In this document: positions 104 to 21,212 of the stretch, piece after piece
How the letters are laid out: each line of letters starts with the position of its first letter
How positions within the stretch are numbered: the first letter of the stretch is position 1
Assembly (NCBI GenBank): GCA_020860445.1
Contig: JAJBUH010000262.1
Location: 1 to 59,337 of the forward strand
Direction of reading: 5' to 3'
Source: Bacteroidales bacterium
GTDB lineage: Bacteria > Bacteroidota > Bacteroidia > Bacteroidales > Muribaculaceae
Length of the DNA: 59,337 bases
The notes under the pieces: model-generated
What the model was told of the DNA's origin: nothing
The model's input: the letters and a program-made list of their open reading frames with translations, nothing else
The model's database searches: none
Program-made: the position numbers and the translations under genes

Positions 104-784
104 ATGTTGATGCATCTGCTGCAATTCACTGATTCAGCGTTCCCGGTGGGCACATTCTCATTCTCCAACGGTTTGGAGACTGCGGCCCACATCGGCATCG
201 TGCATGATGCCGATACCCTGGAGCAATACACGCGATCGGTGGCATTGCAAGGCGCCCTAAGCGATGGCGTGGCTGCCTTGCTGGCTTATCGCGCTGCCAA
301 GGCCAGAGACTACGATACCATACTCAAAGTCGACCAAGAGATAATGCTGTTTAAGATGAACGATGAGGCGCGCCTGATGCTGCAACGCATGGGCAAGAAG
401 TTGGCTGAACTCGGAGTCAAGCTTTTCAAAGCCGATGACGACCTGTTCCATCGCTGGATCGCCGACATCAACTCGGGCAAAACGCCGGGGTCTTATCCCG
501 TGGCCCAAGGAATAGCATTCGCTCAGGCTGGACTATCGGAGGAGGAATTGTTTGCCAGCCATCAATACGGCGTAATCAACATGGTATTGTCGGCAGCTCT
601 GAGATGCGTCAGGGTATCGCATTACGATACGCAGGACATTCTGTATCGCCTATCGGCTGATGTGCCAAAGCTGTACGAGCGCGCTCGCGCGATGACTTTC
701 CACGATATGAACAGCTTCGTGCCAGAGATGGACATCTTCGCCTCGATGCACGAAAAAGGCCAGATGCGTATGTTCATGAATTAA
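104..784 (+). CDS. ureF: Urease accessory protein UreF
   Basis: The 226-residue product fits UreF, the all-helical accessory protein that joins UreD and UreG in the complex that loads nickel into apo-urease in the cytoplasm. The N-terminus carries the family signature around residues 11-25 (SAFPVGTFSFSNGLE), and length and helix-rich composition are normal. ATG at 104 or the ATG two codons later could both initiate; neither has a clear ribosome-binding site because the CTCATAA array abuts the start. ureG follows after 39 bp and ureD after that, so this is the downstream half of a urease operon whose structural genes and ureE probably lie left of the window (inference). Confidence 0.93.
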   Translation: MLMHLLQFTDSAFPVGTFSFSNGLETAAHIGIVHDADTLEQYTRSVALQGALSDGVAALLAYRAAKARDYDTILKVDQEIMLFKMNDEARLMLQRMGKKLAELGVKLFKADDDLFHRWIADINSGKTPGSYPVAQGIAFAQAGLSEEELFASHQYGVINMVLSAALRCVRVSHYDTQDILYRLSADVPKLYERARAMTFHDMNSFVPEMDIFASMHEKGQMRMFMN

Positions 785-790
785 CACACA

Positions 791-820
791 TTACTTTTTA
801 CTCATTACTTATTACTTTTT
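791..820 (+). repeat. Heptad leader array upstream of ureG
   Basis: Four 7-bp units of the form TTACTTT/TTACTCA/TTACTTA/TTACTTT fill the ureF-ureG gap and end just before the ureG ATG. A near-identical array (2505-2531) precedes the urea transporter gene. It belongs to the window-wide family of period-7 leader repeats. Confidence 0.85.
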
Positions 821-823
821 GAG

Positions 824-1453
824 ATGTCAACTTGCAGAATAGGAATCGGAGGCCCGGTTGGTTCGGGCAAAACAGCACTGATCGAGGCCATCACCCCGCG
901 ATTGATGGAGAAGGGCTTGAATGTGCTTATCATCACCAACGATATTGTCACCACTGAGGATGCCAAGCATGTACGCCGTACCCTCAAGGGCGTATTGGCC
1001 GAAGACCGAATCATCGGTGTCGAGACTGGCGCCTGCCCGCATACCGCAGTGCGCGAAGACCCCTCGATGAACATTGCCGCCGTCGAGGAGATGGAGGCTA
1101 AGTTCCCCGAGGCTGACGTGGTGCTTATCGAGAGTGGCGGCGACAATCTGACCCTTACATTCAGCCCGGCCCTGGTGGATTTCTTTATTTATGTAATCGA
1201 TGTGGCCGCTGGTGACAAGATACCGCGCAAGGATGGCCCTGGCATTTCGCAAAGCGACATTCTGGTGATCAACAAAATCGACTTGGCGCCTTATGTCAAC
1301 GCCTCGCTCGAGGTCATGGACCATGACTCAAAGCTGATGCGTCCCGGCAAACCCTTTGTTTTCACCAACTCAATGACTGGCGAAAACATCGATCAGCTCG
1401 TCGACCTCCTCTTCAAGATGGCCCTCTTCGATAAAATGAAAAACGAAAAATGA
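824..1453 (+). CDS. ureG: Urease accessory GTPase UreG
   Basis: UreG is the SIMIBI-class GTPase that carries nickel and powers urease maturation together with UreD and UreF. The 209 residues show a P-loop at 9-17 (GGPVGSGKT), the metal-binding Cys-Pro-His motif at 71-73, the ESGGDNLT switch motif at 103-110 and an NKID guanine-specificity motif near 150. Length is typical. The start ATG at 824 directly precedes the conserved N-terminal strand. The last codons (KMKNEK) are encoded by a GAAAAAT-type heptad repeat that continues past the stop, so the repeat array has been built into the 3' end of the gene. Confidence 0.97.
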
Positions 1454-1521
1454 AAAATACCATCCGGTATCATTCTTCAGTTTTAATTCCTCATTCTTAA
1501 TTTTTCATTTTTCATTTTTAA
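1438..1521. repeat. Paired complementary heptad arrays between ureG and ureD
   Basis: The left arm (1441-1458) is built of GAAAAAT/GAAAAAC units and the right arm (1500-1519) of ATTTTTC units. The two arms are almost perfectly complementary over about 18-20 bp with roughly a 41-nt loop, so the intercistronic RNA could fold into a long A/U stem immediately before the ureD start. No T-run terminator follows, so an mRNA-stability or translation-initiation role is more likely than termination (inference). Confidence 0.85.
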
Positions 1522-1527
1522 TTGAAT

Positions 1528-2469
1528 ATGCGTTACTACTCCGATTCGCCCAAGGTGGACTTCGATTCCATGCCTGAGATGGCCCCTTACCTCGAGCAAC
1601 CCGAAGCTATGTATGTCGGTTGCCCGGGCAAGCATGGCTATCTCAACCTTGGCTTTGAACTCAACAGCGAAGGCAAAAGCATATTGCGCGAACTCGACCG
1701 GCGCGCCCCACTGATTGTACAACAAGAGTTGTACTTTGACGAGGAATTGCCAGGACTGCCTTGCGTGTACATCTTATCATCGGGCGGACCCAATGTTGAC
1801 GGCGATCGCTATGTGCAAAATTTCTTGGTCAAAAAGGATGCAATGGCGTTTGTCAGCACCGGGGCGGCTACCAAAATAGCCGAGATGAAACGCAACTATT
1901 CTGGTATGCTGCAGACCATTACGCTCGAGGAGAGCGCATATTTTGAATATCTGCCCGAGCCCATCATCCCCTGCAAGCACTCGCGCTACATCTCTGATAC
2001 AAAGATTGTGGCTGATGCGACTGCCACGCTTGTTTATTCTGAGATCTATATGGGCGGACGCAAATATTACAAGGATGGTGAGCTATTCCAGTATGACATC
2101 CTGTCGGTGTGCACCCATGCAGAGAGACCTGACGGCGAGCAACTATTCCGCGAGAAATTCATAATCGACCCACACGACAACGACCTGCGCATGATTGGTC
2201 AGATGCACGATTTCGATGTCTTCGCCAACGTGGTGGTACTCGCTCCGAAAGACAAGGCCGAAGAGGTGTACGCCCAAACCGAACCATTTTACGACAAAGA
2301 AAATCGCCTGGCCGCTGGCATTACCCACCTGCCAAACCAGAGCGGCCTGCTATTCAAGGTGCTCGGTATGGAGTCAGGGCCTGTGAAAAAGACAGTCAGG
2401 GAATTTGCCTCCCGGGTGCGCCTCGCTGTCAAGGGCAAACCCATCCCCGCCGAATTCCCCTGGCGATGA
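1528..2469 (+). CDS. ureD: Urease accessory protein UreD (UreH)
   Basis: This 313-residue protein matches UreD, the beta-rich scaffold that docks on urease and channels nickel from UreG. Recognisable features are the early block around AYFEYLPEPIIPCKHSRY (about residues 142-159) and the C-terminal region ending PAEFPWR. I prefer the ATG at 1528; an in-frame TTG two codons upstream would add only Met-Asn. The start sits right after the T-rich arm of the ureG-ureD heptad stem. Gene order ureF-ureG-ureD is intact and co-oriented, and a urea transporter follows 65 bp downstream. Confidence 0.93.
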   Translation: MRYYSDSPKVDFDSMPEMAPYLEQPEAMYVGCPGKHGYLNLGFELNSEGKSILRELDRRAPLIVQQELYFDEELPGLPCVYILSSGGPNVDGDRYVQNFLVKKDAMAFVSTGAATKIAEMKRNYSGMLQTITLEESAYFEYLPEPIIPCKHSRYISDTKIVADATATLVYSEIYMGGRKYYKDGELFQYDILSVCTHAERPDGEQLFREKFIIDPHDNDLRMIGQMHDFDVFANVVVLAPKDKAEEVYAQTEPFYDKENRLAAGITHLPNQSGLLFKVLGMESGPVKKTVREFASRVRLAVKGKPIPAEFPWR

Positions 2470-2504
2470 AAACAATTGACAATTAATCTCCACGGCAGTA
2501 TTTC

Positions 2505-2531
2505 TTATTACTCATTACTTATTACTTTTTC
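2505..2531 (+). repeat. Heptad leader array upstream of the urea transporter
   Basis: TTACTCA/TTACTTA/TTACTTT units repeat with a 7-bp period and end shortly before the ATG at 2535. The sequence is nearly the same as the array before ureG (791-820), so the two gaps of this operon carry copies of one repeat. Confidence 0.85.
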
Positions 2532-2534
2532 ACG

Positions 2535-3545
2535 ATGGAAGCAACAACTAACGCCCCCTCGCCAATGGGCCAACAATTAAAATTGGCTGTGCGCACTCTG
2601 CTGCGCGGCTCTGGCCAAGTGATGTTTCAGTGCAGCGCTTGGACCGGCCTTTTCTTCCTGCTCGGAATCTTCTGGGGCTCTTATGAGTGTCACCTTCCCC
2701 AAGTAGCTTGGGGAGCCGTGGTGGGCTTAGTGTTCTCCACGCTTGCCGGTTTCCTGCTCAAGCAAAATGTGGCCGACGGCGACCAGGGCCTGTGGGGATT
2801 CAATGGCATACTTGTGGGTTGCGCCTTCCCGACATTCTTGGCCAATACTTGGCTGATGTGGATTTCGCTCGCTTTGTTTGCCATGTTCACCACTTGGGTG
2901 CGCCAGGGATTCAACAATGTGATGGCGCCCTGGAAGGTCAACTCCCTAACATTCCCCTTCGTGTTCATGACTTGGATTTTCCTGCTATGCTCGCGCATAT
3001 TCGAGGCTATCGACCCAGTGGGGATGTCTCACCCGGTAGCAGTAGACGTAGCCGCAACTGCATTCGGCGTTGACACCGGCTTTGGCCATCTGGTCATCTA
3101 CTGGCTCAAGGGCGTGTCACAGGTGTTCTTGATCAATTCATGGGTGACTGGCATATTCTTCCTGGTGGGCTTGGCTTTGTGCAACAAATGGGCAGCATTC
3201 TGGGCCGCTGCCGCTTCGGCAATTTCGCTGGCGCTGGCTTTGCTCTTCAAGGCCACCCCGACCGACGTGGCCAATGGCCTGTTTGGTTTCAGTCCAGTGC
3301 TTACCGGCATCGCCGTGGGCATGACTTTCTACTCTGTCAATTATAAGACTGCCATCTGGGCCGTGCTGGCCATCGTGGCTACATTCTTTATGCAAGCGGC
3401 CATGGACGTATTCTTCGAGCCTTGGGGAATGCCTACCCTCACTGGACCCTTCTGCATCACCACCTGGCTATTCCTCCTGCCTCTCTATAAATTCACTGTA
3501 GCCGACCCCGACCACTCGCACTGGCACTCAGCCAAAGCCAAATAA
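2535..3545 (+). CDS. Urea transporter (UT family)
   Basis: The 336-residue hydrophobic protein fits the UT-type urea channel family, which lets urea enter by facilitated diffusion. The internal two-fold repeat typical of the family is visible: GFNGILVGCAFPTF near residue 92 and GLFGFSPVLTGIAVG near residue 244, and a family-like LTGPF block follows near 300. About ten membrane segments can be traced by eye. It follows ureD in the same direction, consistent with a urea import and hydrolysis operon that yields ammonia for nitrogen assimilation or acid buffering (inference). Substrate is assigned from family and context. Confidence 0.9.
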   Translation: MEATTNAPSPMGQQLKLAVRTLLRGSGQVMFQCSAWTGLFFLLGIFWGSYECHLPQVAWGAVVGLVFSTLAGFLLKQNVADGDQGLWGFNGILVGCAFPTFLANTWLMWISLALFAMFTTWVRQGFNNVMAPWKVNSLTFPFVFMTWIFLLCSRIFEAIDPVGMSHPVAVDVAATAFGVDTGFGHLVIYWLKGVSQVFLINSWVTGIFFLVGLALCNKWAAFWAAAASAISLALALLFKATPTDVANGLFGFSPVLTGIAVGMTFYSVNYKTAIWAVLAIVATFFMQAAMDVFFEPWGMPTLTGPFCITTWLFLLPLYKFTVADPDHSHWHSAKAK

Positions 3546-3609
3546 CAACTCATAACTCATAACTCACAACTCATAACTCACAACTCATAACTCATAACTC
3601 ATAACTATA
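3546..3609. repeat. Heptad array (CTCATAA/CTCACAA) before the MFS gene
   Basis: About nine copies of CTCATAA or CTCACAA fill the whole gap between the urea transporter stop and the next ATG. It is the same unit as the array at the left edge of the window, some 3.5 kb away in the same operon. Confidence 0.93.
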
Positions 3610-4938
3610 ATGCTGTTGCGCACGATGCCACTCAGAGGAGCCGATTACTGGATCGTAACGGTATCCTCAATGGAGCAGCTAATAGGCGGAGCCCTATCGA
3701 CAGTCATCTCAGTGATGCTGCCCATGCTGCAAATGACCCTCCACCCCGAGCTACCCTCGGTGGTGCAAGGCATCGTGGGCGCAATGGGCCTTATCGGCAT
3801 CGGGCTCGGTTCGCTGATTATCGGCAAACCGAGCGACAAGATGGGATATCTTATCTGGTTTCGCCTGTGCCCCATAATCATAATGGCAGGATCGCTGATT
3901 TGCATCTTCCTGCCGAATGTGGGGTGCTTGGTGGCTGGCCTGCTCATCATTGGCATTGGCACCGGAGGCGGCTACAGCCTGGATTCGGCTTATATCTCTG
4001 AGCTATTGCCCGACAAGTGGCGCTTGTTTATGGTAGGTGTAGCTAAGGCTACTTGTTCGATTGGATTCTGCGCTCCAGCCATCGTCTGCTATTGGATACT
4101 CAAGCATGACCCCTCGGCTCACATCTGGAGCCGCATGGCATGGATCCTGTTTGTGCTGGGCGCCGTGACATTGCTGATGCGTCTGCGTTGGGCTGAGAGT
4201 CCCAAATGGCTGATGGCTCAAGGCAAACTCAAGCAAGCCCAGAAAGCCGCCCAGAAGCTGCTGGGCTCGGATGTTGACGTAGCCCCCGAGAAACCCAATG
4301 GCGCCCCAGCGCCCAAGTCAAAATTCCAATGGGGACCAAATATGAAGAAAATCATCTTCAGTGGTATTCCTTGGGCATGCGAGGGACTGGGTGTGTACGG
4401 ATTCAGCGTGTTCCTGCCTGTGATGGTTATGGCTCTTGGATTTGAGAAGGTTACAGAACACGGAATTGTGAAGATTATGAGTTCGGTCGAGGTTACAGCG
4501 GTGGTTAATGCCTTTATCATTCCCGGCTTCATCATCGGTCTGTGGCTGATACGCAAGCACAACCATGTAAAGATGCTGTACAAAGGCTTTATCTGGAGCG
4601 CAATCGGCTTGGTAGCCCTGTTGATATCCTACCTGCTCAAGCTCCCGGCTTGGACTATGCTTATCGGCTTTATGATTTATGAGATAGCTCTTAATGCCGG
4701 ACCCCACTTGATCACCTATGTGATACCACCGCGCATCTATCCGGTCGAAGACCGAGCCGAGGGCAATGGCATAGCGGCCCTGATTGGCAAGGTGGGAGCC
4801 GTGGCCGGTGTGATTCTTATGCCCATCCTGCTCGACTGGGGAGGCATGACCCTGGTATTGGTAGTCTCAGCGATAGTAATGATTATCGGTGCCCTAATCG
4901 GCCGCATCTATGGCCGCCAGCTGGGCCTAGTAAAATAA
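3610..4938 (+). CDS. MFS transporter in the urease locus
   Basis: A 442-residue integral membrane protein of the major facilitator superfamily with about twelve membrane segments and a central cytoplasmic loop near residues 200-240 rich in Lys, Ala and Pro. The loop after TM2 has a weak motif A (GKPSDKMG). The PESPRW-like block after TM6 (AESPKWLM) points to the sugar-porter/SV2-like branch. The substrate cannot be read from sequence. It is separated from the urea transporter only by a heptad array and is probably co-transcribed, so a role near urea or nickel supply is possible but unproven. Confidence 0.85.
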   Translation: MLLRTMPLRGADYWIVTVSSMEQLIGGALSTVISVMLPMLQMTLHPELPSVVQGIVGAMGLIGIGLGSLIIGKPSDKMGYLIWFRLCPIIIMAGSLICIFLPNVGCLVAGLLIIGIGTGGGYSLDSAYISELLPDKWRLFMVGVAKATCSIGFCAPAIVCYWILKHDPSAHIWSRMAWILFVLGAVTLLMRLRWAESPKWLMAQGKLKQAQKAAQKLLGSDVDVAPEKPNGAPAPKSKFQWGPNMKKIIFSGIPWACEGLGVYGFSVFLPVMVMALGFEKVTEHGIVKIMSSVEVTAVVNAFIIPGFIIGLWLIRKHNHVKMLYKGFIWSAIGLVALLISYLLKLPAWTMLIGFMIYEIALNAGPHLITYVIPPRIYPVEDRAEGNGIAALIGKVGAVAGVILMPILLDWGGMTLVLVVSAIVMIIGALIGRIYGRQLGLVK

Positions 4939-5025: not shown

Positions 5026-5970
5026 CTATGGCCTCAGTGAGTTGATATCCACTATCCCGTTGATTACGGCATATATGGCCAAACCGGCTGGCGAGTGGAT
5101 TTGCAATTTCTGAGCCAAATTGCGCCGGTGGGTTGTGACGGTATTGACCGATACGCACAGGGCATCGGCTATCTCTTTGTTGCTCATGCCCTGAGCCACG
5201 CACGATATGATCTCTCGTTCGCGTTGGCTCAGGTTGGCATCTTCGGGATTGCCCTCGGTGCCATCCTCAGCAGTCTTTGTCGGCGGATTTTCAATCACAT
5301 GCCGCTCAAGACGCTCTACAGCCGGAACAAACAGTTTGTCCTCGACCGAACAGTGGGACACCAGATCTTGCTCGCAATTCATGATATCGAATAGCACTGC
5401 GTTGAGCAGGTTGTTTTCGCGTTGCGGCAGATAGCGGATAATAATATTCTTGAGTTCCTTGAGCTTGGTGTGGATGCTATGATGGCCCGAGGCAAATACG
5501 GCTATGCTGTATTCTTCGTCGAGTTCGCCCGTGAGCAGATTCTTTACGTAGTTGAGCACCGTATTATTCTCGTGCTGCATGTGACGATTGACCTCCTCGA
5601 CATAGGCATCATAAAATTTGAGTATGAGCATAGCCACCTCGTCGCGGCCCGAGCAATCGATAGCCTCGATGAGTTTGCGCCGAATCAAAGGCAGGCAGAA
5701 ATCCAAGAAATAGCTGTGGGCATGCTGCAGGTAGCGCATGATCGATGGCACTGCTACCGAGTCGATATCCTGATGTCCGAAAGAGATGAAATTGGCTACA
5801 GCGAGAAATGTATTGCAGTCAACTTCTTGTTCCTCACATATTTGCCCTATTGTCTTCTCGCCAAATCCGAGGGATATGCCAAAGCGGCTCATAGCCATCA
5901 AGAGCATCGGATTGTCGTTGATCAGCTGGCTCATGCGCTGGTCGGCGGTATAGATTTTTGTCTCACTCAT
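5026..5970 (-). CDS. Hemerythrin-like domain / LuxR-type DNA-binding regulator
   Basis: The 314-residue cytoplasmic protein combines an N-terminal helical domain with a C-terminal LuxR/GerE helix-turn-helix (LSQREREIISCVAQGMSNKE at about 250-269, recognition region NTVTTHRRNL). The N-terminal part carries His and Glu residues spaced like hemerythrin/RIC di-iron proteins: HAH near 85, HMQHEN near 136, HHSIH near 169 and HCSVEDKLFVP near 211. I infer a di-iron sensor for oxygen, nitric oxide or iron controlling transcription. It is convergent with the urease/MFS operon, and its 3' end lies 87 bp from the MFS stop. Its target is unknown. The DNA-binding call is firm and the metal site is inferred. 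Confidence 0.85.
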   Translation of the reverse strand: MSETKIYTADQRMSQLINDNPMLLMAMSRFGISLGFGEKTIGQICEEQEVDCNTFLAVANFISFGHQDIDSVAVPSIMRYLQHAHSYFLDFCLPLIRRKLIEAIDCSGRDEVAMLILKFYDAYVEEVNRHMQHENNTVLNYVKNLLTGELDEEYSIAVFASGHHSIHTKLKELKNIIIRYLPQRENNLLNAVLFDIMNCEQDLVSHCSVEDKLFVPAVERLERHVIENPPTKTAEDGTEGNPEDANLSQREREIISCVAQGMSNKEIADALCVSVNTVTTHRRNLAQKLQIHSPAGLAIYAVINGIVDINSLRP

Positions 5971-7649: not shown

Positions 7650-8657
7650 ATGATTACCCTACGCCTCAAACGCGTCTTTTTTAGCCTTGTTGCCAGCTTA
7701 GCCCTATCCGCTTGCGCTCAAAATCCGGTTACTCCGCCGCCTCTGTTGCCGGGAGCCAAAATCGCTATCGTTACCCCGGCCTCGGCCATCGACAGCATGG
7801 TCATTGTGCGAGCTGCCGAAAAGATAACCCAGATGGGCTATGAGCCCGTGGTCTACCCCCACGCTTTCGGCCGACATCACGGCACCTATGCCGCCAACGA
7901 CACCCTGCGCGCTGTCGACCTGATGACGGCCTTTGCCGACCCCGAAATCTCTGCCATCCTATGCGCCCGAGGCGGATACGGCACCAATCGCTTGATACCC
8001 ATGCTCGACATCGAGGTGATCAAGGCCAATCCTAAATGGCTAATAGGATATTCTGATATTTCGGTGCTGCATGCGTTGATGCGCAAAGCCAGAATCACGT
8101 CAATCCACGGGCCTATGTGCGGCCATATCGATGACAATCCGCTCGACGAGGAGAGCACCGCCTACCTATTCCAGATGCTGTCTGAAGGACTGCCAATGTC
8201 GTATGAAATTGAGACTCATCCCTATAATAAATACGGATACGCCAAGGGGCGCCTCGTTGGTGGCAACCTCCTCACCATCAATGCCCTCTCAGAGACGCCT
8301 CTCGATGTGCTGAATATCGGCGATCAAGAGGATATCATCCTTTACATCGAGGATGTGTCAGAGCAAATCTACGCCATCGAGCGAGTACTGATACGCTTGC
8401 ATCAGTCGGGTGCCCTGGCTAATCTCAAGGGGTTGATAATCGGAGAGTTCACCGACTACAAGCCCAGCAAAGATTTTGAGACGATGGAGGATATGATCCA
8501 CTATTGGCTCGACGAGTGGGGATATTACGGGTCTGAGGATTTCCCGATAATGTTCGGCTTCCCAGCCGGCCACGGCGAACCCAACTATCCCCTCCCCCTC
8601 GGTGCCATGACCGAGATTTCCCTCACCCCCACCGCCTCCAAAATCGCCTTCAAATAA
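7650..8657 (+). CDS. LD-carboxypeptidase, peptidase family S66 (lipoprotein)
   Basis: The 335-residue protein matches LD-carboxypeptidases, which cleave the L,D bond of murein tetrapeptides during peptidoglycan recycling. The proposed Ser-Glu-His triad is visible: Ser135 in GYSDIS, a Glu in YIEDVSE near 234 and a His in PAGHGEPN near 313. The oxyanion-region block ARGGYG is at 106-111. Unlike cytoplasmic LdcA, it has a signal peptide with lipobox LSAC (Cys22), so it should act in the periplasm or on a membrane face. It has its own promoter and is followed by an inverted-repeat element. Confidence 0.9.
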   Translation: MITLRLKRVFFSLVASLALSACAQNPVTPPPLLPGAKIAIVTPASAIDSMVIVRAAEKITQMGYEPVVYPHAFGRHHGTYAANDTLRAVDLMTAFADPEISAILCARGGYGTNRLIPMLDIEVIKANPKWLIGYSDISVLHALMRKARITSIHGPMCGHIDDNPLDEESTAYLFQMLSEGLPMSYEIETHPYNKYGYAKGRLVGGNLLTINALSETPLDVLNIGDQEDIILYIEDVSEQIYAIERVLIRLHQSGALANLKGLIIGEFTDYKPSKDFETMEDMIHYWLDEWGYYGSEDFPIMFGFPAGHGEPNYPLPLGAMTEISLTPTASKIAFK

Positions 8658-8659
8658 CC

Positions 8660-8717
8660 GGTACAGGGGACAGTCCCTTGTGCCAAAAAACTGGGACAAG
8701 GGACAGTCCCCTGTACC
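8660..8717. repeat. REP-like imperfect palindrome (GTACAGGGGACAGTCCC type)
   Basis: Two 22-bp arms (8660-8681 and 8696-8717) are complementary at all but one position around a 14-nt loop. Each arm contains its own 11-bp palindrome, GGGACAGTCCC. A related single palindrome lies at 39241-39266. The form resembles REP elements mobilised by REP-associated IS200-like transposases, but no transposase is present here. It could also end the S66 transcript, although no T-run follows. Confidence 0.85.
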
Positions 8718-8735
8718 ATCAGAATCGACCTCGCA

Positions 8736-9524
8736 ATGGAGCTGTTTGACCCACATTTGTACTGGAGCCTGCTGGTGGCGGTAGCCATCCTCAGCCTGCC
8801 CGTCTTTATCTGCCTGCAGTGGATAAATGCCGGGTATGGCGTGATGTACACTCCAAAATGGGGTCCGGCCATCTCCAATCGCATTGGTTGGATAGCAATG
8901 GAGCTCCCTGCGCTGCTCTGCTTTGTCGGCGTTTGGTGCGTAGCTCTGTATCACAAGCTCCCAGGCGCCACAGAGCCTTGGCCCTTGGTGATTGGAGGAC
9001 TGTTTGCGCTGCACTATATCCAGCGCTCGCTGATATTTCCGCTGTTGATGCGAGGACGCAGCAAGATGCCCATCACCATCATCGCCATGGGGGTAATCTT
9101 CAATGCGCTCAACGCCTACTTGATTGCCGGATGGCTCTTCGCCATCGCCCCGACTGGGTATTACGATGACTGGGACTGCACCCCGATGTTTTGGATAGGC
9201 CTGTGCGTATTCATAGCCGGAGCTGCCATCAATATGCACAGCGACAATATCATACGCCATCTGCGAGCCCCGGGCGATCGAGGACATTACATACCTCGCG
9301 GCGGGATGTTCCGCTACGTGACCAGCGCCAACTATTTCGGCGAATTTACCGAATGGGTCGGATACGCCATCCTCAGTTGGTCGTGGGCCGGAGCAGTTTT
9401 TGCCATTTGGACCTTCGCCAACCTCGCTCCTCGCGCTTCGTCCCTCCACCGGCGCTACCTGTCAGAATTTGGCGACCAATACGCTCGCCTCCACCGCAAG
9501 CGCATCCTCCCCTACCTCTATTAA
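8736..9524 (+). CDS. Steroid 5-alpha-reductase (SRD5A family)
   Basis: This 262-residue membrane protein belongs to the 3-oxo-5-alpha-steroid 4-dehydrogenase family, which reduces the delta-4 double bond of 3-oxo-steroids with NADPH. It closely follows the animal SRD5A1/2 pattern as I know it: MELPAL at 55-60 (matching the QELPS block with the catalytic Glu), LHYIQRSLIFPLLMRG at 92-107 (matching the HYFHRT block with the catalytic Tyr), NMHSD at 166-170, and the NADP-binding run YIPRGGMFRYVTSANY at 185-200 followed by EFTEWVGYA. About six to seven membrane helices are expected. It opens an operon with an ene-reductase and two SDRs. In gut Bacteroidales such sets have been linked to 5-alpha bile acids and steroids; the substrate here is inferred. 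Confidence 0.9.
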   Translation: MELFDPHLYWSLLVAVAILSLPVFICLQWINAGYGVMYTPKWGPAISNRIGWIAMELPALLCFVGVWCVALYHKLPGATEPWPLVIGGLFALHYIQRSLIFPLLMRGRSKMPITIIAMGVIFNALNAYLIAGWLFAIAPTGYYDDWDCTPMFWIGLCVFIAGAAINMHSDNIIRHLRAPGDRGHYIPRGGMFRYVTSANYFGEFTEWVGYAILSWSWAGAVFAIWTFANLAPRASSLHRRYLSEFGDQYARLHRKRILPYLY

Positions 9525-9533
9525 GCATTTTTC

Positions 9534-9560
9534 TAAAAGCTAAAAACCAAAAACCATCCC
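9534..9560 (+). repeat. Short heptad leader (AAAAGCT/AAAAACC) before the ene-reductase
   Basis: Units AAAAGCT, AAAAACC and AAAAACC repeat with period 7 just before the ATG at 9561. The same arrangement precedes the GNAT gene at about 28871-28901. Confidence 0.7.
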
Positions 9561-10790
9561 ATGGCACAGCAATTGCTATTTACAGAGGCTCACATTGGAC
9601 CGATGACCCTGAGAAATCGCGCCGTCAGGTCGGCCGCCTTCGAGGGCATGGGCCACGCCAACGGCCCGACCCAGATGCTCCACGACTATCATGTGTCAGT
9701 GGCTCGCGGAGGCGTAGGCATGACCACCCTCGCCTACGCGGCAGTGTGCCAGTCGGGACTTAGCTTTGAGACCCAATTATGGTTGCGTCCCGAAATCGAG
9801 GGCGACCTGCGCAAGATCACAGACGACATCCACGCCGCCGGAGCAAAGGCCTCGATTCAGATTGGCCATTGCGGAAACATGACCCACCGCGCCACAGCCA
9901 GCCAAACGCCCGTAGGGCCCAGTTCTGGTTTTAATCTATACAGTCCTACTTGGTGCCGAGCCCTGCGCGATGACGAATTGCAAGAGATCGCTCGACAATT
10001 TGGCGAAGCCGTCAACACTGCTCGCCGAGCCAGATTCGACTGCGTTGAGGTGCACGCCGGCCATGGCTATCTTATCTCCCAATTCCTCTCGCCTTACACC
10101 AACCGCCGCCACGACCAATATGGCGGCTCGCTTGACAATCGCATGCGGTTTATGCGTATGTGCATGGAGCAAGTGATGGACGCAGCCGCCGATGATATGG
10201 CCGTGGTGGTAAAGACCAATATGCGCGACGGTTTCAAGGGAGGCCTTGAGATTGACGATTGCATCACTGTGGCAAAAGAATTGGAGCGCCTCGGCGCTCA
10301 CGCCTTGGTATTGTCCGGCGGTTTTGTCAGCAAGGCACCCATGTATGTGATGCGCGGCGAAATGCCCATCTACTCGATGACCCACTATATGCGCCAGTGG
10401 TGGCTGAAATACGGGGTGAGGATGGCAGGCAAATATATGATTCCCCCTGTGCCTTACCAGGATTTATATTTCTTGCCCGATGCCTTGCGATTCCGCGATG
10501 AACTGCAAGGAAAACTCATCTATGTAGGCGGCGCAGTGAGCCGCGAGGGCATCGAGCAGGTGCTCAACCAGGGATTCGAGGCAGTACAGATGGGTCGAGC
10601 CCTATTGCGCGACCCAGAATTTGTCAACCACATGCGCGATGGTCAGGAGCGCTGCGACTGCGACCATGTCAACTATTGCATCGCCCGCATGTATTCACGC
10701 GAGATGGCTTGCCACAAGTGCTTGGCCGGTAAGCTTCCACCCCGCATCGTCAAAGAAATCGAACAAATCAAGGCTCGACAGAAAAAATGA
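9561..10790 (+). CDS. Old Yellow Enzyme-family ene-reductase, candidate steroid 5-beta-reductase
   Basis: The 409-residue protein is an NADH:flavin oxidoreductase of the Old Yellow Enzyme type, an FMN TIM barrel that reduces activated C=C bonds. The substrate-binding pair H165/H168 lies in VHAGHGYLISQFLSPYTN, followed by DQYGGS. Near the C-terminus five Cys (365, 367, 373, 384, 387) form a cluster that could hold an Fe-S centre. It lacks the FAD/NAD(P) C-terminal domains of BaiCD/BaiH and dienoyl-CoA reductases. Being next to an SRD5A homologue and overlapping the following SDR by 4 bp (ATGA), it is a candidate delta-4 steroid 5-beta-reductase (inference). Confidence 0.85.
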   Translation: MAQQLLFTEAHIGPMTLRNRAVRSAAFEGMGHANGPTQMLHDYHVSVARGGVGMTTLAYAAVCQSGLSFETQLWLRPEIEGDLRKITDDIHAAGAKASIQIGHCGNMTHRATASQTPVGPSSGFNLYSPTWCRALRDDELQEIARQFGEAVNTARRARFDCVEVHAGHGYLISQFLSPYTNRRHDQYGGSLDNRMRFMRMCMEQVMDAAADDMAVVVKTNMRDGFKGGLEIDDCITVAKELERLGAHALVLSGGFVSKAPMYVMRGEMPIYSMTHYMRQWWLKYGVRMAGKYMIPPVPYQDLYFLPDALRFRDELQGKLIYVGGAVSREGIEQVLNQGFEAVQMGRALLRDPEFVNHMRDGQERCDCDHVNYCIARMYSREMACHKCLAGKLPPRIVKEIEQIKARQKK

Positions 10791-11608
10791 TTTCACCATT
10801 CATTAACCCAGAAAAACTACAACCACGCTGGGCTCTTATCACTGGCGCCTCATCGGGCATAGGCTTGTGCATCGCCAAGGAGCTGGGCAGCAAGGGTTAT
10901 TCCCTGGCCTTGGTCTCGAATCAAGCCGAGCAGCTTGCCACCTGCGCTCATGAGCTTAAGGAGACCTACGGAGTACGCACCGCCACTCTTTGCTGCGATC
11001 TTTGCGCTCCAAAAGGGCCAGAGGGAGTGATGGAATGGCTGTTAGGCTTAGGGGGAAAATTAGACATTCTGGTCAACGATGCCGGAATATTCGCCTTTGA
11101 CTATCTCACCAATATGGCGCCCGAGAAGGTGCAAGCCTTCATCGACCTGCATGTAAAAGCAGTGACTCATCTGAGCCGATTGGCCGCAATCTACATGTCG
11201 CAGTATGGAGAGGGCCACATACTGAATATGAGTTCCATGTCGTGTTGGACTCCAGTGCCAGGGTTGGCAATGTATGCGGCTACCAAGGCGTATATCCGCG
11301 TTTTCTCACGCTGTCTCGCCTACGAGATGCGCGACCAAGGGATAACAGTCACAGTAGCTGTGCCAGGCGGCATAGCTACCGACCTATTCGGACTTCCGCC
11401 CAAGCTCAAACGCTTGGCATTGCGTCTCCACGCCATCCAGACTCCCGAGGCTTTTGCCAAAGCTGTCGTCAAGGCCACTCTCAGCGGCAAAATGCAATAC
11501 ATCAACGGGGTTGCCAACCGTATTGGCATCGTGCTGGTAGGCCTCACCCCTACCTGGGGCCGCATGCTTGTCAAGCGCAAGATGTTGGATAAAAACATAC
11601 GCCGATAA
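10787..11608 (+). CDS. Short-chain dehydrogenase, candidate hydroxysteroid dehydrogenase
   Basis: A 273-residue classical SDR with cofactor motif TGASSGIG at 19-26, NDAG at 97-100 (Asp in place of the usual second Asn), catalytic Ser near 149-150, Tyr163 and Lys167. The active-site region resembles the 17-beta-HSD12/ketoacyl reductase branch. The C-terminal tail is long and basic, with a hydrophobic stretch near 247-253. Its ATG overlaps the ene-reductase stop (ATGA), and its own stop overlaps the next ATG by one base, so the genes are translationally coupled. Oxidation or reduction of a steroid 3-hydroxyl is the most natural role in this operon but is inferred. Confidence 0.85.
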   Translation: MISPFINPEKLQPRWALITGASSGIGLCIAKELGSKGYSLALVSNQAEQLATCAHELKETYGVRTATLCCDLCAPKGPEGVMEWLLGLGGKLDILVNDAGIFAFDYLTNMAPEKVQAFIDLHVKAVTHLSRLAAIYMSQYGEGHILNMSSMSCWTPVPGLAMYAATKAYIRVFSRCLAYEMRDQGITVTVAVPGGIATDLFGLPPKLKRLALRLHAIQTPEAFAKAVVKATLSGKMQYINGVANRIGIVLVGLTPTWGRMLVKRKMLDKNIRR

Positions 11609-12360
11609 TGACCCCTCTCCTCCCAGCAGTAATAACCGGAGCCACTGGCGCAATAGGCACGCAAATCTCTCTGCGCCTGACCCAGCAAGGCTACCCTCTG
11701 TGGCTCGCTTGCCGCTCTGAGCAAAAAGCCCAAAGTGTAATCCAATCATGCTTGGAGGCTGGTGCTCCAGAGGCGCGATTCTTGCCTCTTGACTTGGCCG
11801 ATGAGGTCTCAGTGAGAGCCGCGGCAGAGACGCTGCGCAATGCCGGGTCGCAACTCTCAGGCCTGATCAACAATGCCGGAATCATGCAGCGCCATTGGCA
11901 GACCGATGCGCAAGGGCGCGAGTTGACGATGCTCGTCAACTATTGGCATACCCGTCTACTGACCGAATTGCTATTACCAATGATTGCCGATGTCGGCGCG
12001 GTAGTCAGCACAACCTCGCTCACTCGGCTTTGGCCAAGCAAGGATTATGAAAATCTCTATGTCGATGAGCGCCATTTCTCCCAGCTCGGCACCTATGGCC
12101 AATCAAAGCGAGCATTGACGCAATGGATGGCCCAGCTTGCTGCCTCGCCATCTGGCCAACGCCTACGCATCAATTGCGCTGACCCAGGTATTGTCTCCAC
12201 TGGCATGATCACCATGCACCGCTGGTACGACCCACTCGCTGACCTACTATTCCGTCCACTTATCCGCTCTCCCCGCCTTGGCAGCGACCCAGCCCTCCGC
12301 GCCTGGTCTGCCCCTACCTCTGGCTCCATCTATTGCCGTCACCTAACCCATACCTTATAG
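11608..12360 (+). CDS. Second short-chain dehydrogenase of the steroid-reduction operon
   Basis: The 250-residue SDR has TGATGAIG at 10-17, NNAG at 88-91, Ser near 137, Tyr163 and Lys167 (YGQSK). The layout is that of the retinol-dehydrogenase-like branch, including an acidic insertion before the active-site Tyr. It starts at the last base of the preceding stop codon and ends the operon; the AraC gene is convergent 28 bp beyond. It may act on a second ring position or with the opposite stereochemistry to the first SDR, which sequence alone cannot decide. Confidence 0.85.
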   Translation: MTPLLPAVITGATGAIGTQISLRLTQQGYPLWLACRSEQKAQSVIQSCLEAGAPEARFLPLDLADEVSVRAAAETLRNAGSQLSGLINNAGIMQRHWQTDAQGRELTMLVNYWHTRLLTELLLPMIADVGAVVSTTSLTRLWPSKDYENLYVDERHFSQLGTYGQSKRALTQWMAQLAASPSGQRLRINCADPGIVSTGMITMHRWYDPLADLLFRPLIRSPRLGSDPALRAWSAPTSGSIYCRHLTHTL

Positions 12361-12388: not shown

Positions 12389-13228
12389 TTATTTTGGGAA
12401 AGACTGGTTGCGAAAGTCGGTGGGGGTGATTCCCGTCTGTTGCTTGAAGAATTTGGCGAGTGCCGCTTGAGAGGGGAAGCCTAAAAGTTCTGCAATGCGT
12501 TGGATTGGCATTGTGGTATTGTTGAGGTACCATGAGATTTTGCCAGTAAGAGTAAAGGCTATCCATTTGCTGGCAGTCACATTAGAATAACCGCATAGCA
12601 CTCGATTGAGGTACTGACGGCTGATGCACAATTTTGAGGCATAGAAATCAACATTATGGTCTGCAGAGCTGTGCTTGGTCATGAGATTGATGAAATTCAT
12701 CATTATCTCTTTGCGACGTGAGTCCCCAGCTTGTATTTTCTCCAAGCCCTCAAATTTTATGAATTGATTGGCTATCTCGAGAAGCAGCATCCACATTGCG
12801 CTCTTAACCATCTCCTTGCGGAAAAGTCCCGTGATGTTGGTATAAACATTGTCAATATTTTCAAATCGATCCTCAAAATGCCTCACGCTTTCTTCAAGGA
12901 GAGGAGTGATAGGTTCTTTGAGCACCTTTATGAAAAATGTAATAGGGAAAGGCGGTCTAAATTGAATAAGGTTTGTAGAAAAGTCTCGGCCCATAGCCAA
13001 AATGTAGGCTTTTGTATCGGGGCCTATATACAGAATTTCAAGTTCGGTCAACTCAATAAATGTACCAAAACAAGAAGAAGTAACATTATATATCGTACCG
13101 TATCTTCTGATATCAATTTGGCCTCGCACCACAAAAATATGAGCCACCATCCCTTCTTCGCAACTTACTCGGCAAAGAAGATGCTGCTCATCTTGGCGCG
13201 ATATTCTCCAGAACAAAAAAATCATCAA
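12389..13228 (-). CDS. AraC-family transcriptional regulator
   Basis: The 279-residue protein ends in an AraC/XylS double helix-turn-helix (about 185-275), with LCISRQYLNRVLCGYSN in the first unit and IAELLGFPSQAALAKFFKQQTGITP in the second, split here only by normal family variation. The N-terminal 160 residues resemble a CRP-like/cupin sensing domain with no recognisable ligand motif. It is convergent with the steroid operon, so both could be linked in function although they do not share a promoter. A minus-strand -7 box lies 86 bp upstream of the ATG. Confidence 0.87.
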   Translation of the reverse strand: MMIFLFWRISRQDEQHLLCRVSCEEGMVAHIFVVRGQIDIRRYGTIYNVTSSCFGTFIELTELEILYIGPDTKAYILAMGRDFSTNLIQFRPPFPITFFIKVLKEPITPLLEESVRHFEDRFENIDNVYTNITGLFRKEMVKSAMWMLLLEIANQFIKFEGLEKIQAGDSRRKEIMMNFINLMTKHSSADHNVDFYASKLCISRQYLNRVLCGYSNVTASKWIAFTLTGKISWYLNNTTMPIQRIAELLGFPSQAALAKFFKQQTGITPTDFRNQSFPK

Positions 13229-15320: not shown

Positions 15321-17145
15321 ATGAAACGTCTTTTCTTTTTATTTGCCGCTTTAGTCTCGATGAGTGCTCTGTGGGCAGATTCAGCTACTGAGATGTGGCT
15401 TGGATATTGCGACAACCAAGTAGCCAAGTCGGGCAATGGCGATTTCGCTGCCGACCAAACCGACGCTTGGGTATCCGAAGCCATATATCTGCCAGCCGAA
15501 AAGTTGGCTCCATTTGTGGGTAATCAGATTACAGCTATCCGCGCTGGCGTTGGCGGCACTGTCAATGTCGATTCCCTGGTAGCATGGGTTCGCACCGACC
15601 TCAATGGCGAAAACCTTGCCTTTACTGGAATCAGCAAAAGCACTACCCCCAAATTCTCTAAAGGTTGGAATACTGTGCCACTGGCCGAACCTATCGACAT
15701 TACCTCAGACCTACCAGGTCTATACTTAGGTTATTCTTGCCATCAATCGCAAAAGGCTCTCTGCCTCTCTATTATCACCGCAGCCGACTTGGATACAAAT
15801 GAGAACGGCCTATGGGTTAAGCTCGGCGACGAGGACTGGTCAGATCGTCATGATGAGGGTACTGCCTCGGTCGAGGCTGTCATTACTGGTGACAATCTGC
15901 CGCAATGCAACCTCAGCCTCACTGCCTTAAACATCCCAGCTGGTCAGTTGACAATCTCGCGCGGTGTGATGCAACTGACAGCCTCAGTAAAAAAACCGCG
16001 GTGCCGTCACTGTCACTGGCTTTGATTTGATATGCTCGTTTGAGGATGCTGATGCTGAATATGCCACTCATTTTGAGACTGACCTCGAATATAACAACAG
16101 TGTTGACCTCAAATTCACTATCTATCCAGATTGCTATGAGACTGCTGATGATTTGATGCACACCGTCAAGGTCACCGTGGCCAATATTGACCAAGGTGCC
16201 GACTATGATACCACTGACAACTCGATGAGCGCTGAAATCGCTTTGGTGCAAAAGGCCTATGAGCGCCAGATATTGCTTGAGGAATTCACCACTGAAAATT
16301 GCATCAATTGCCCATCGATGGCCGAGCTGGTTCATACCTTCCTTGAGACAGATGATTATGATGAGCGTGTAAATGCCGTATGTCACCACTCAGCATACTA
16401 TACCGATTGGCTGACGATTGATGCTGACGAGTCATTCATGTGGTTCTTCAACTCCAACTCTACTTTTGCTCCAGCTCTGATGTTCGACCGTCTGACCGCC
16501 GACTATACGATTTATGATAATGACAAGTCGCCTATCTCATTCCCATCATCAGTATCTGATTTTATCGCTATCGCTGATCGCCGCTTAGCTCTCGACGCAA
16601 TGGTTGACCTCAATATCCAAGCCGTGTTGCCAGATGAGGCTGAGGAGATTTCGATCACCGTAACAGGCGAACGCGCCATTGAGAATTTCACAGCTCAGCC
16701 TCCGCGCATCGTGGTCACTCTGGTTGAGGATAGCGTCAATGCTAAGAATCAGTCGGGATATGGCCGTAGCTTCATCCACATGCACGTCAATCGCGCCCAC
16801 AACAGCACTTGGGGCGATGTGATTGAGTGGTCGGGCGATGAGTTCACCTACACCTGCTCATTGCCAGTTGATGAGAGCTACAACCGCGATCATCTGTATG
16901 TTGTGGCTTATGTGTGGAACGATGGCCCCAACTATGTTGAGAATTGCGAAGTAATCAACAGCCGCAAGCTACGCATCAAGGACTTTGGCACCTCTTCAAT
17001 CTCAAATGTCTCAATCGAGAGCACCTCTGCCGTGCCTTGCGCTTACTATACCCTCGATGGCCTGAGGCTCACATCACCCCAGCCGGGCATCAATATCGTC
17101 AAATACACCGACGGCTCATCTCGCAAGATCTATCACAAACAATAG
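15321..17145 (+). pseudogene. Omp28-like secreted protein, frameshifted in an A7 run
   Basis: Two reading frames make one gene. The first part (15321-16025) has a signal peptide and a beta-rich domain, then runs into stop after an A7 tract at 15989-15995. The second frame (from about 16000 to 17145) continues the protein. Removing one A joins them as VKNRGAVTVTGFDLICS, an uninterrupted beta-strand segment. The second half holds a thioredoxin-like block with CINC (EEFTTENCINCPS), as in Omp28-related proteins, and ends with YYTLDGLRLTSPQPGI, a sorting-type tail. The restored length is about 607 residues. The indel may be a real phase-variable or inactive allele or a sequencing error. Confidence 0.85.
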
Positions 17146-19381: not shown

Positions 19382-19418
19382 AAATTGAATCTACCCGGTG
19401 AATTTTGAATGACAGATA

Positions 19419-19450
19419 TTTGGAGAATTGACGGACATTTGGTAAATTTG
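19419..19450 (+). promoter_or_regulatory. Promoter of the first AAA/PD-(D/E)XK gene
   Basis: TTTG at 19419-19422 and TAAATTTG at 19443-19450 with 20 bp between them match the Bacteroidetes promoter. The downstream GCACAAATC matches the region after the box at 13492. Because the box is inside the longest open frame, the true start must be the ATG at 19490. Confidence 0.8.
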
Positions 19451-19489
19451 CACAAATCAATAAGAGATAAACATTCAAACTCTGTGGCT

Positions 19490-21142
19490 ATGAGCAATGA
19501 CTACGATTTTGAATTTGAGGATATGCCAGTGAGCTATCCCGTGGGTGAACATAGCTTCCGCGAATTGCGTCGCGGAGGATTCCTCTATGTGGATAAGACC
19601 TACTATTTGGCTCGCTTGATAAAGCAAGGGAAATTCATCTTCCTGTCACGGCCTCGCCGTTTTGGCAAGAGTCTTATGCTATCTACCATTGAATGTTTCT
19701 TCCGTGGCGAAAAAGAGTTATTCGAAGACACATGGATTGCCCCAAGAGTCAAGGAATGGAAATCCTACCCGGTTCTTCATTTTGATATGAGCCGAACCAA
19801 TGGATTCAATGCCGAGGCTATGCTAAAGCATCTTAACCGCAGGCTTGAAACTTATGAGGCTCAATATGAGTTGCCTCTTAATTCCGACTCCACAGACCTT
19901 GGTGACCGATTCAGTAGCTTGATTGAGGGTATATACAAAAAGACTGGCACGCAAGTAGTAATTCTCATAGATGAATATGATAATGGGATACTTGAGACTC
20001 TTGATGATTCTGAGGAAGAACAAGAGGCCATGGGCGATGTCCTCAGATCTTTCTATCGCCAACCTAAGGCTATGACAGAATGTGTAAGATTCTGTATGGT
20101 CACTGGTGTAGCTCGATTCGGTAGTTATACCCTGTTCTCTGGAGGCAACAATTACTTGGATATCTCAATGATGCCTAATTACGCATCAATTTGTGGCATT
20201 ACCCAAAAAGAATTGCTCGACAATTTCCAAGAAGGGATAAAACAACTTTCCTCAGCTCATAATATGGGTCATGAGGAGATGATTGAAGCTCTCCGACTAA
20301 AATACGATAGCTATCGCTTTACACAAAGCGAAGAATTAGTCTACAACCCATACAGTCTGCTCTGTGCATTCACTGAGTTAAGACTCGATAATTTCTGGAT
20401 TAAGACTGGAATCAGCAAGGTATTTGTGAAGTATCTTTCTCGTTCAGAATTTGACCTTTTAGAACTTGGAAACCTATGGGTCACTCGAGAACGCATGGAA
20501 GCCAAATACCAAAAAGGAGACTCTATCCCCTTGCTTTTCCAAACTGGCTATTTCACTATTAAAGATATACTCGATTTTAAGAGTTTCCGTTTAGGAATTC
20601 CTAATGGAGAGGTGCGTAGCGCCTTAGTTGACCAGCTTATGCCCATCTATATGGGAATATCAGAAAATCAGTTCTCGACTCTCCTTACCCGCCTACATGT
20701 GGATTTAAAGAAAGGAGAGACAAATGAATGGATTAAAGATATCCAATCCTTGATCAGCAAAATTCCCCATCAGCTTTTCGGTCCTTTGGATAGCAAAAGC
20801 GAGGATAAGGAGGTGCGTCAAAAGATTGTTGATTCCAATATCTCTCATTTTGAACGAACCTACCATATCATAATTCATATGATATGTCAAATGATAAAAG
20901 TCGACATCGAGAGTGAAGTATCATTTTCTGGTGGTCGAGCTGATATGGTCATTAAGACAAATCGATTTATTTATGTCATAGAGTTTAAGCTAGATAGCAC
21001 AACGGCTGAAGCCCTTAAGCAAATTGATGATAAAGGTTACCTACTTCCATGGCACGCAGATGGCCGCAAGGTATATAAAGTCGGCATCATATTCTCTTCC
21101 AAACTCCGCAACATTTCCGATTACCAAATCATAGAAGGATAA
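19490..21142 (+). CDS. AAA-ATPase-like / PD-(D/E)XK nuclease-fold protein, copy 1
   Basis: The 550-residue product has the Bacteroidetes-expanded architecture of an N-terminal AAA-ATPase-like domain and a C-terminal PD-(D/E)XK nuclease-fold domain. Visible motifs are the P-loop variant RPRRFGKS near residue 60, Walker B VVILIDEYD near 157-165, and near the C-terminus SGGRADMVI and VIEFKLD, supplying the D and ExK residues of the nuclease core. I chose ATG 19490 because the promoter lies inside the longer frame. The biological role of the family is not established; mobility or defence links are inference. It is very similar to the gene at 36547 and precedes a TIR gene by 70 bp. Confidence 0.88.
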   Translation: MSNDYDFEFEDMPVSYPVGEHSFRELRRGGFLYVDKTYYLARLIKQGKFIFLSRPRRFGKSLMLSTIECFFRGEKELFEDTWIAPRVKEWKSYPVLHFDMSRTNGFNAEAMLKHLNRRLETYEAQYELPLNSDSTDLGDRFSSLIEGIYKKTGTQVVILIDEYDNGILETLDDSEEEQEAMGDVLRSFYRQPKAMTECVRFCMVTGVARFGSYTLFSGGNNYLDISMMPNYASICGITQKELLDNFQEGIKQLSSAHNMGHEEMIEALRLKYDSYRFTQSEELVYNPYSLLCAFTELRLDNFWIKTGISKVFVKYLSRSEFDLLELGNLWVTRERMEAKYQKGDSIPLLFQTGYFTIKDILDFKSFRLGIPNGEVRSALVDQLMPIYMGISENQFSTLLTRLHVDLKKGETNEWIKDIQSLISKIPHQLFGPLDSKSEDKEVRQKIVDSNISHFERTYHIIIHMICQMIKVDIESEVSFSGGRADMVIKTNRFIYVIEFKLDSTTAEALKQIDDKGYLLPWHADGRKVYKVGIIFSSKLRNISDYQIIEG

Positions 21143-21212
21143 GATTACTCCCAACCTATTCTCCTCTTTATAAAATCAAAGGCTTATTATAAATCAAAAC
21201 AGTCTTTAGTCC

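Follow-up and report, generated by a model that had tools for sequence, protein, structure and literature searches.

In gut Bacteroidota, genes for a 5-alpha-reductase (5AR) have been described in clusters with a predicted 3-beta-hydroxysteroid dehydrogenase (3-beta-HSDH) and an NADH:flavin oxidoreductase, and disruption of the 5AR gene in Parabacteroides merdae stops the formation of allolithocholic acid (alloLCA) derivatives (PMC10382948). The proposed indirect pathway involves a 3-alpha-HSDH, a 5-beta-reductase (5BR), the 5AR and a 3-beta-HSDH (PMC9645264), through which 3-oxolithocholic acid (3-oxoLCA) is converted into 3-oxo-delta4-LCA, then into 3-oxo-alloLCA and finally into isoalloLCA (PMC10672800). 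The 5BR role of the flavin enzyme is presented as a hypothesis in the review describing the clusters (PMC10382948), and the route and its genes are covered in further reviews (PMC11271093, PMC12692668, PMC12697870, PMC13008668, PMC12789469). Here we consider a window of 59,337 nucleotides, i.e., the whole stretch of contig JAJBUH010000262.1 that was analysed, from a Muribaculaceae genome (assembly GCA_020860445.1), in which four plus-strand genes (8736-12360) encode a predicted SRD5A-like 5AR, a flavin ene-reductase of the OYE type (hereafter OYE) and two short-chain dehydrogenases, SDR1 and SDR2.

The predicted NADPH-dependent 3-oxo-delta4-steroid 5-alpha-reductase (8736-9524, 262 aa; PF02544, 1.3e-42) is separated by 36 bp from the OYE, a candidate bile-acid 5-beta-reductase/dehydrogenase (9561-10790, 409 aa; PF00724, 1.3e-50), which in turn shares a 4-bp ATGA overlap with SDR1, a classical short-chain dehydrogenase and candidate C3 hydroxysteroid dehydrogenase (10787-11608, 273 aa; adh_short, 3.7e-42). 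SDR2, of a distinct second SDR family and a candidate 3-beta-HSDH acting on the 5-alpha product (11608-12360, 250 aa; adh_short, 5.8e-24), overlaps SDR1 by 1 bp (TAATG). The compact same-strand operon of the original prediction is therefore borne out by the open reading frames, by the junctions read from the sequence and by the strong family matches, and none of the four proteins has lost its catalytic residues. A genome search found the 5AR and the OYE to be the sole PF02544 and PF00724 matches, respectively, in the source genome (4.14 Mb, 98% complete). Since the gene order recurs across Bacteroidales, the operon is not a chance arrangement: it is real, conserved and of a known kind, in a variant carrying two SDR families.

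The likeness to the published Bacteroidota cluster lies in a 5AR adjoining an NADH:flavin oxidoreductase (a short OYE) and an SDR in gut Bacteroidales, and the Parabacteroides-type 5AR is an orthologue of the window enzyme with the same active-site Met. The link to reported Bacteroidales sets of 5AR, 5BR and 3-beta-HSDH had thus been rightly drawn (PMC10382948, PMC9645264, PMC10672800). The difference is that one predicted 3-beta-HSDH is described there, whereas two SDR families stand in one Muribaculaceae operon here. Such systems are thus already known in related gut bacteria, and the new elements are the second SDR and the active-site details; the most testable of these are the M-E-Y branch of the 5AR, the way in which the SDR families sort by 5AR in Parabacteroides, and the conserved Cys and His residues of the short OYE. 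In the reviews and search listings covered, a published operon carrying the two SDRs together was not found, the primary gene maps of Sato 2021 and Li 2021, reportedly the original papers behind the isoalloLCA cluster, lying outside that coverage.

Active sites and phylogeny of the two reductases

The 5AR aligns nearly full-length with PbSRD5A (7c83, 181 bits) and human SRD5A2 (7bw1, 128 bits), the enoyl-CoA reductase ART-1 scoring 41 bits. The SRD5A mechanism depends on Glu57 and Tyr91, with Gln56 holding the Glu (PMC7815742; roles also in PMC7591894), and the substitutions Q56A/L, E57L and Y91F abolish the activity of human SRD5A2 (PMC7815742). It had been claimed that the window enzyme keeps both active-site blocks of the animal proteins: MELPAL (residues 55-60) and HYIQRS (93-98) are indeed present and the catalytic pair is kept, E56 and Y94 occurring in 132/132 distinct 5AR sequences, window included, but the blocks are not identical to the animal ones. 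The Gln of the Q-E-Y signature, present in PbSRD5A and SRD5A2, is Met (M55 in the window) in all 132 sequences, as well as in the 24 rows (one of them a repeat) of a second 5AR clade; the enzyme is therefore filed as an M-E-Y branch of PF02544 rather than as animal-type Q-E-Y. Such an active site bears on the substrate choice of 5-alpha-reductases.

Seven of the eight SRD5A NADPH ligands (N160, D164, R171, N193, E197, R227, H231 and Y235), mapped on the alignment with the solved SRD5A proteins, are kept in the window as N166, D170, R177, N199, E203, R233 and Y241, while L237 stands for H231. The latter position is other than His in 128 of the 132 sequences (I 87, L 32, T 4, V 4, S 1), so that Ile or Leu accounts for 119; the second clade has His in 21/24 rows and Asn in 3/24. 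BaiP and BaiJ, the bile-acid 5-alpha-reductases of Firmicutes, yield the same product class, allo bile acids, yet they are not of the membrane SRD5A type and are contrasted with the membrane-associated Bacteroidetes enzymes in the abstract of one paper (PMC9645264).

In a tree of 50 rows, a first clade of 23 (support 100/100), built from 22 of 46 intended loci plus the window, holds the window enzyme and all OYE-adjacent 5ARs in the tree, and eight of its rows come from loci without an adjacent OYE. The second Bacteroidales clade (24 rows, 95/87; L076 and L253 are the same gene) joins it at 91/80, and the Bacteroidales enzymes together join PbSRD5A at 84/82 only, and the two longest branches of the outgroup come together. 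This second 5AR-like clade (L234-L253, L073-L076) is itself M-E-Y and mostly retains the ligand His, and no OYE or SDR match was found in its 20 fetched loci.

The OYE is a short, single FMN barrel whose first ~260 residues are closest to YqjM-type enzymes, with H165, H168, Y170, C104 and Q174 conserved in 137/137 distinct rows. As predicted, it lacks the C-terminal domains of BaiCD: no FAD/NAD domain is present, and its 409 residues compare with the 642 positions of the BaiCD model NCBIfam NF041087, against which it scores 178 bits for a cut-off of 825; membership in BaiCD was rejected. The five cysteines noted earlier are all found at its C-terminus (365, 367, 373, 384 and 387), but only three of them are conserved: C367, C373 and C384, with N371 and R376, occur in 136/137 rows (the remaining row has a gap), H369 and H385 in 134/137, whereas C365 is Cys in 96/137 rows and C387 in 21/137. 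The conserved pattern, C367-x5-C373-x10-C384-H385 within a CxHxNxC...CH motif, does not fit the four-Cys motif CxxC-x3-C-x11-C of iron-sulphur relatives of the BaiCD type. Analogy with the Fe-S members of the OYE family makes a metal site likely, but their spacing is different.

With BaiCD and the Clostridium steroid 5-beta-reductases (PMC12238238) the OYE shares the FMN barrel, the catalytic Tyr and the proposed 5-beta-reduction of delta4-3-oxo compounds, while differing in the absence of FAD/NAD(P) domains and of the four-Cys motif. A characterised progesterone 5-beta-reductase of Clostridium innocuum, modelled on 2,4-dienoyl-CoA reductase, has N166 and S171 as marker positions, where bile-acid reductases mostly carry Tyr/Ser and Glu (PMC12238238); mapped by eye on the catalytic Tyr, these positions are G169 and Q174 in the window OYE, which fits neither class.

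Two dehydrogenase families across Bacteroidales

Both SDRs carry the TGxxxGxG glycine motif, N-x-A-G and the Ser-Tyr-Lys residues, with N97, S150, Y163 and K167 in 59/59 rows of SDR1 and S137, Y163 and K167 in 57/57 rows of SDR2 (alignments made without eight loci whose frames were cut, over-long or duplicate). A tree of 122 of the 129 cluster SDRs, from which three cut genes and four identical copies were left out, separates into two groups of 62 and 60, each supported at 100/100, and the nearest solved structures differ between the two. The earlier claim of two distinct and coupled SDRs is thereby upheld by separate clades and by the overlapping reading frames in the window. SDR1 and SDR2 thus belong to separate families, both of which are passed on together with the cassette; the SDR2 family is the one that accompanies 5AR in Parabacteroides and in named species of Bacteroides and Phocaeicola.

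Among 392 Bacteroidales genomes, 53 harbor a 5AR of the first-clade type and 56 an OYE of this type, distributed as both in 52, 5AR only in one, OYE only in four and neither in 335, with cut-offs set in this analysis (5AR 200 bits, OYE 650 bits) and with G173, whose OYE is split across two contigs, scored as OYE-positive. The co-occurrence p of 8e-59 is only a guide, the genomes being related. Named genomes contain at least 565 relatives of the OYE; these were ranked by similarity to the window enzyme and the top 80 retained, so the sample of named loci is biased towards that enzyme. Represented in this set are, among others, Muribaculaceae, Bacteroides, Phocaeicola, Coprobacter, Parabacteroides, Odoribacter and unplaced Bacteroidales; seven of their titles give a gut or faecal site and most give none.

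Synteny was counted at 90 loci, left from 141 sequences after setting aside 18 without OYE, four duplicates and 29 of the remaining 119 that were short of flank, and the counts are good to about one (L157, tallied as OYE-SDR2, shows OYE-SDR1-SDR2). The 5AR adjoins the OYE at 77/90 loci, and the order 5AR-OYE-SDR is found at 73/90: 31 loci show 5AR-OYE-SDR2, 23, window included, show 5AR-OYE-SDR1-SDR2, and 19 show 5AR-OYE-SDR1 without SDR2. The others are OYE-SDR1 (9), 5AR-OYE (4), OYE-SDR2 (3) and OYE alone (1). The Bacteroidales synteny for which a search had been proposed is thus strong, and the four-gene form is also present in Heminiphilus faecis AM35 and Coprobacter secundus 177. A locus titled Pseudoflavonifractor, a member of the Firmicutes (L098), shows a typical Bacteroidales four-gene cassette and is probably mislabelled or from a mixed bin.

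Of six genomes searched in family f2, five have all four genes, mostly on separate contigs, so that the association is not only one of shared linkage; in G297 the 5AR and SDR2 lie on one contig, in G351 the OYE and SDR1 stand side by side, and the sixth genome (G037) gave no OYE match at the cut-off. At least one SDR was found in 32/32 searched 5AR+OYE genomes, both families in 12, SDR1 only in 19 and SDR2 only in one (cut-offs set in this analysis, SDR2 268 bits and SDR1 236 bits; two weaker SDR2 matches of 173 and 163 bits in G151 were left uncounted). These 32, 29 of the 52 above plus three others, were hand-picked, mainly among genomes without a complete cassette. Five genomes having neither 5AR nor OYE gave SDR1 in 0/5 and a weaker SDR2 match (191 bits) in 1/5.

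Parabacteroides offers a natural test case for the two SDR families. In 38 genomes searched, 19 OYE loci have SDR2, 18 of them in 5AR-bearing genomes (the exception is G450; in G437 the 5AR lies away from the OYE), and 14 have SDR1, with 5AR in 0/14 of their genomes; the remaining five genomes could not be typed, two of which (G454 and G459) have 5AR. SDR2 was found at the cut-off in 0/10 SDR1-type genomes (ten of the 14 searched), and SDR1 was missing from 10 of 12 SDR2-type genomes searched, G436 and G462 having one elsewhere. This genus therefore has two distinct cassettes, OYE+SDR1 lacking a 5AR and OYE+SDR2 accompanied by one. A strict rule by which SDR2 occurs only with 5AR and SDR1 only without it was rejected, being broken by the 19 5AR-OYE-SDR1 loci and the SDR1-only genomes. 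In a review table, Parabacteroides distasonis has entries for 3-alpha-HSDH and 3-beta-HSDH and none for 5AR (PMC12692668).

In one Parabacteroides genome (G432, locus L225, G432:C1) SDR1 adjoins an OYE whose reading frame is broken, and a search for 5AR gave no match; the locus looks like a decayed cassette. Six Parabacteroides OYEs (L208, L212, L213, L214, L229 and L233) group with those of Bacteroides and Phocaeicola, apart from the other 26 Parabacteroides rows, a placement for which horizontal transfer of the cassette is a possible explanation.

Proposed reactions, substrate and alternatives

Taking together the gene content, coupling, conserved catalytic residues and co-occurrence observed here, we consider it probable, with a fair margin of doubt, that the operon encodes an inversion of the A/B ring junction of bile acids, or of the steroid nucleus in general, in which 5-beta-3-oxo, delta4 and 5-alpha-3-oxo forms are interconverted and two C3 dehydrogenases take part. 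The OYE would act as a reversible 5-beta-reductase linking the 5-beta 3-oxo and the delta4-3-oxo forms of a bile acid; the membrane 5AR would deliver an NADPH hydride to the alpha face of C5 and give a flat 5-alpha (allo) 3-oxo product; SDR2 would most likely reduce this product to the 3-beta-hydroxy (isoallo) form, and SDR1 would most likely interconvert 3-hydroxy and 3-oxo forms on the 5-beta side. The net result would be the conversion of lithocholic- or deoxycholic-type acids into isoallo forms, or partial steps of that route. We infer the substrate, the direction, the C3 stereochemistry and the step given to each SDR, the SDR roles from comparative genomics.

Every typed 5AR-bearing Parabacteroides genome has SDR2 at its OYE, so the predicted 3-beta-HSDH of P. 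merdae is probably of the SDR2 type, and for this reason the 3-beta-HSDH role is given to SDR2, an assignment for which the balance tips slightly in favour. SDR1 stays with the OYE where no 5AR exists and therefore points to the 5-beta side; its role as a 5-beta-side 3-HSDH is plausible at somewhat short of even chances. A bile-acid substrate is favoured by the genetics of P. merdae and by the association with the choloylglycine-hydrolase family (PF02275, cut-off of 120 bits set in this analysis), which is commoner in 5AR+OYE genomes (31/52) than in the others (39/340) and occurs in 4/42 genomes of the second 5AR clade; the source genome has one such gene, which encodes 359 aa when read from its ATG. 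Hormones and other steroids are less likely substrates.

Several observations speak against this proposal. Substitution of Gln56 by Ala or Leu kills the human enzyme, and the window 5AR has Met there; all the fetched homologues, Parabacteroides among them, carry Met, so that this residue is probably compatible with activity, as the effect of 5AR disruption in P. merdae also suggests. No choloylglycine hydrolase is found in 21 of the 52 5AR+OYE genomes, and the association may only mark gut life. The 5BR role of the flavin enzyme is hypothetical in the literature too (PMC10382948). Given that 19/90 loci have no SDR2 and 19/32 genomes have SDR1 only, SDR2 is dispensable and both jobs may fall to SDR1. 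Neither a regulator nor a transporter for bile acids was recognised as tied to the locus, an MFS gene ~4 kb upstream recurring in 1/40 regions. Moreover, one or two label changes on the OYE tree (built without G432, whose frame is short) suffice to account for the split of SDR families by 5AR in Parabacteroides, so that its Fisher p of 1.8e-8 overstates the split and was rejected as independent evidence.

The same chemistry might serve another substrate, namely host or dietary delta4-3-ketosteroids such as progesterone, testosterone, cortisol or sterol-derived enones. SRD5A enzymes do act on steroid hormones (PMC7815742), a gut progesterone 5-beta-reductase has been characterised in C. innocuum (PMC12238238), and the G169/Q174 pair of the window OYE fits neither marker class; the loss of lithocholic-acid derivatives upon 5AR disruption in P. 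merdae (PMC10382948) and the choloylglycine-hydrolase association argue otherwise, and we regard this alternative as rather unlikely. Another alternative is that the OYE is a different ene-reductase, reducing a delta1 or delta6 bond to feed the 5AR. BaiH-like members of the OYE family act at delta6, OYEs are promiscuous, and the C-terminal Cys motif is unlike the BaiCD type. The 5BR role is itself termed hypothesised (PMC10382948). Set against this, the published route needs a 5-beta dehydrogenation step (PMC10672800), and the OYE+SDR1 cassettes of 14 Parabacteroides genomes in which no 5AR was found (the OYE being interrupted in one) suggest that the enzyme has an independent activity, which makes a delta1 or delta6 role quite improbable.

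The original prediction had also allowed the two SDRs to work at two ring positions, for instance C3 and C7, C12, C17 or C20. Their separate 100/100 clades and different nearest solved structures are compatible with that idea, and 7-alpha-HSDHs are among the 60 best SDR1 matches, but those matches are weak (~72 bits) and rank below sugar and acyl-carrier reductases, SDR1 and SDR2 substitute for each other directly behind the OYE, and the published pathway requires C3 steps on the 5-beta as well as the 5-alpha side (PMC9645264), so that both SDRs are more simply C3 enzymes; the two-position claim is not supported and we hold it to be unlikely. It is very unlikely that, in an otherwise real pathway, one of the SDRs is a mere passenger whose substrate is unrelated: SDR1 or SDR2 is missing from many otherwise similar loci, yet the reading frames are coupled in the window, both SDR families follow the inheritance of the cassette in several bacterial families, and the five genomes without 5AR and OYE showed no SDR1 and a single weaker SDR2 match. 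A steroid or bile-acid A-ring module therefore stays the best reading, with strong synteny on its side, stripped of the identity with the animal blocks, of the five-Cys cluster as a unit and of the two ring positions.

A bolder and more tentative form of the A/B-ring proposal is that the single operon is a complete inverter, with an M-E-Y 5AR, two SDRs of opposite C3 stereochemistry, serving the bent 5-beta and the flat 5-alpha side respectively, and a hitherto unrecognised Cys/His metal site in the short OYE. If so, one Muribaculaceae strain would make isoalloLCA or isoallodeoxycholic acid (isoalloDCA) from LCA or DCA, respectively, without a partner species. IsoalloLCA promotes regulatory T cells (PMC11271093, PMC13008668) and inhibits Gram-positive pathogens at the micromolar level (PMC10382948). 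How much each of the two routes contributes to the pool of secondary allo bile acids is described as unexplored by the latter review (PMC10382948). The four-gene operon would name a source, and its two SDR families a gene marker predicting producers of 3-oxo-allo, isoallo or 5-beta forms.

Neighbouring genes and other features of the window

Three flanking genes were considered and rejected as parts of the system. In a comparison of 40 regions, the LD-carboxypeptidase gene (7650-8657) recurs only in a locus of the same genus (L037) and, distant at the far edge, in L063, and the upstream MFS gene has a match only in L037. Elsewhere matches to the downstream AraC gene (12389-13228, minus strand), a potential dedicated regulator, are weak and inconsistent.

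The gap before the 5AR (8655-8735) is filled by a nearly perfect 26-nt inverted repeat of the GGTACAGGGGACAGTCCC type, 92% complementary and with a predicted fold of -48.7 kcal/mol (z -8.6). A search of its own genome gave 24 strand matches to the motif, spread over about 15 places (two mismatches or fewer), with 0 for the reversed control, and the close relative L037 has just a short palindrome at the corresponding position. The repeat looks like a repetitive extragenic palindromic (REP) element; no T-run lies behind it, so it is not an obvious terminator.

At the window edge (104-4938) lie genes for UreF and for two transporters, one for urea (PF03253) and one of the MFS type. They probably belong to the last part of a urease operon that the edge truncates, and they are followed on the minus strand (5026-5970) by a hemerythrin domain fused to a LuxR-type DNA-binding domain, a possible oxygen or redox sensor. 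Beyond the operon, two adjoining open reading frames (15321-17145; 234 and 372 aa), of which the latter matches Omp28, could represent a single split gene or two separate ones. A predicted AAA-ATPase/PDDEXK_9 gene followed by a TIR-Sel1-repeat gene (19409-22586) could be a defence-like or mobile pair, and the 18-24 kb region around it has a low G+C content (0.40-0.46).

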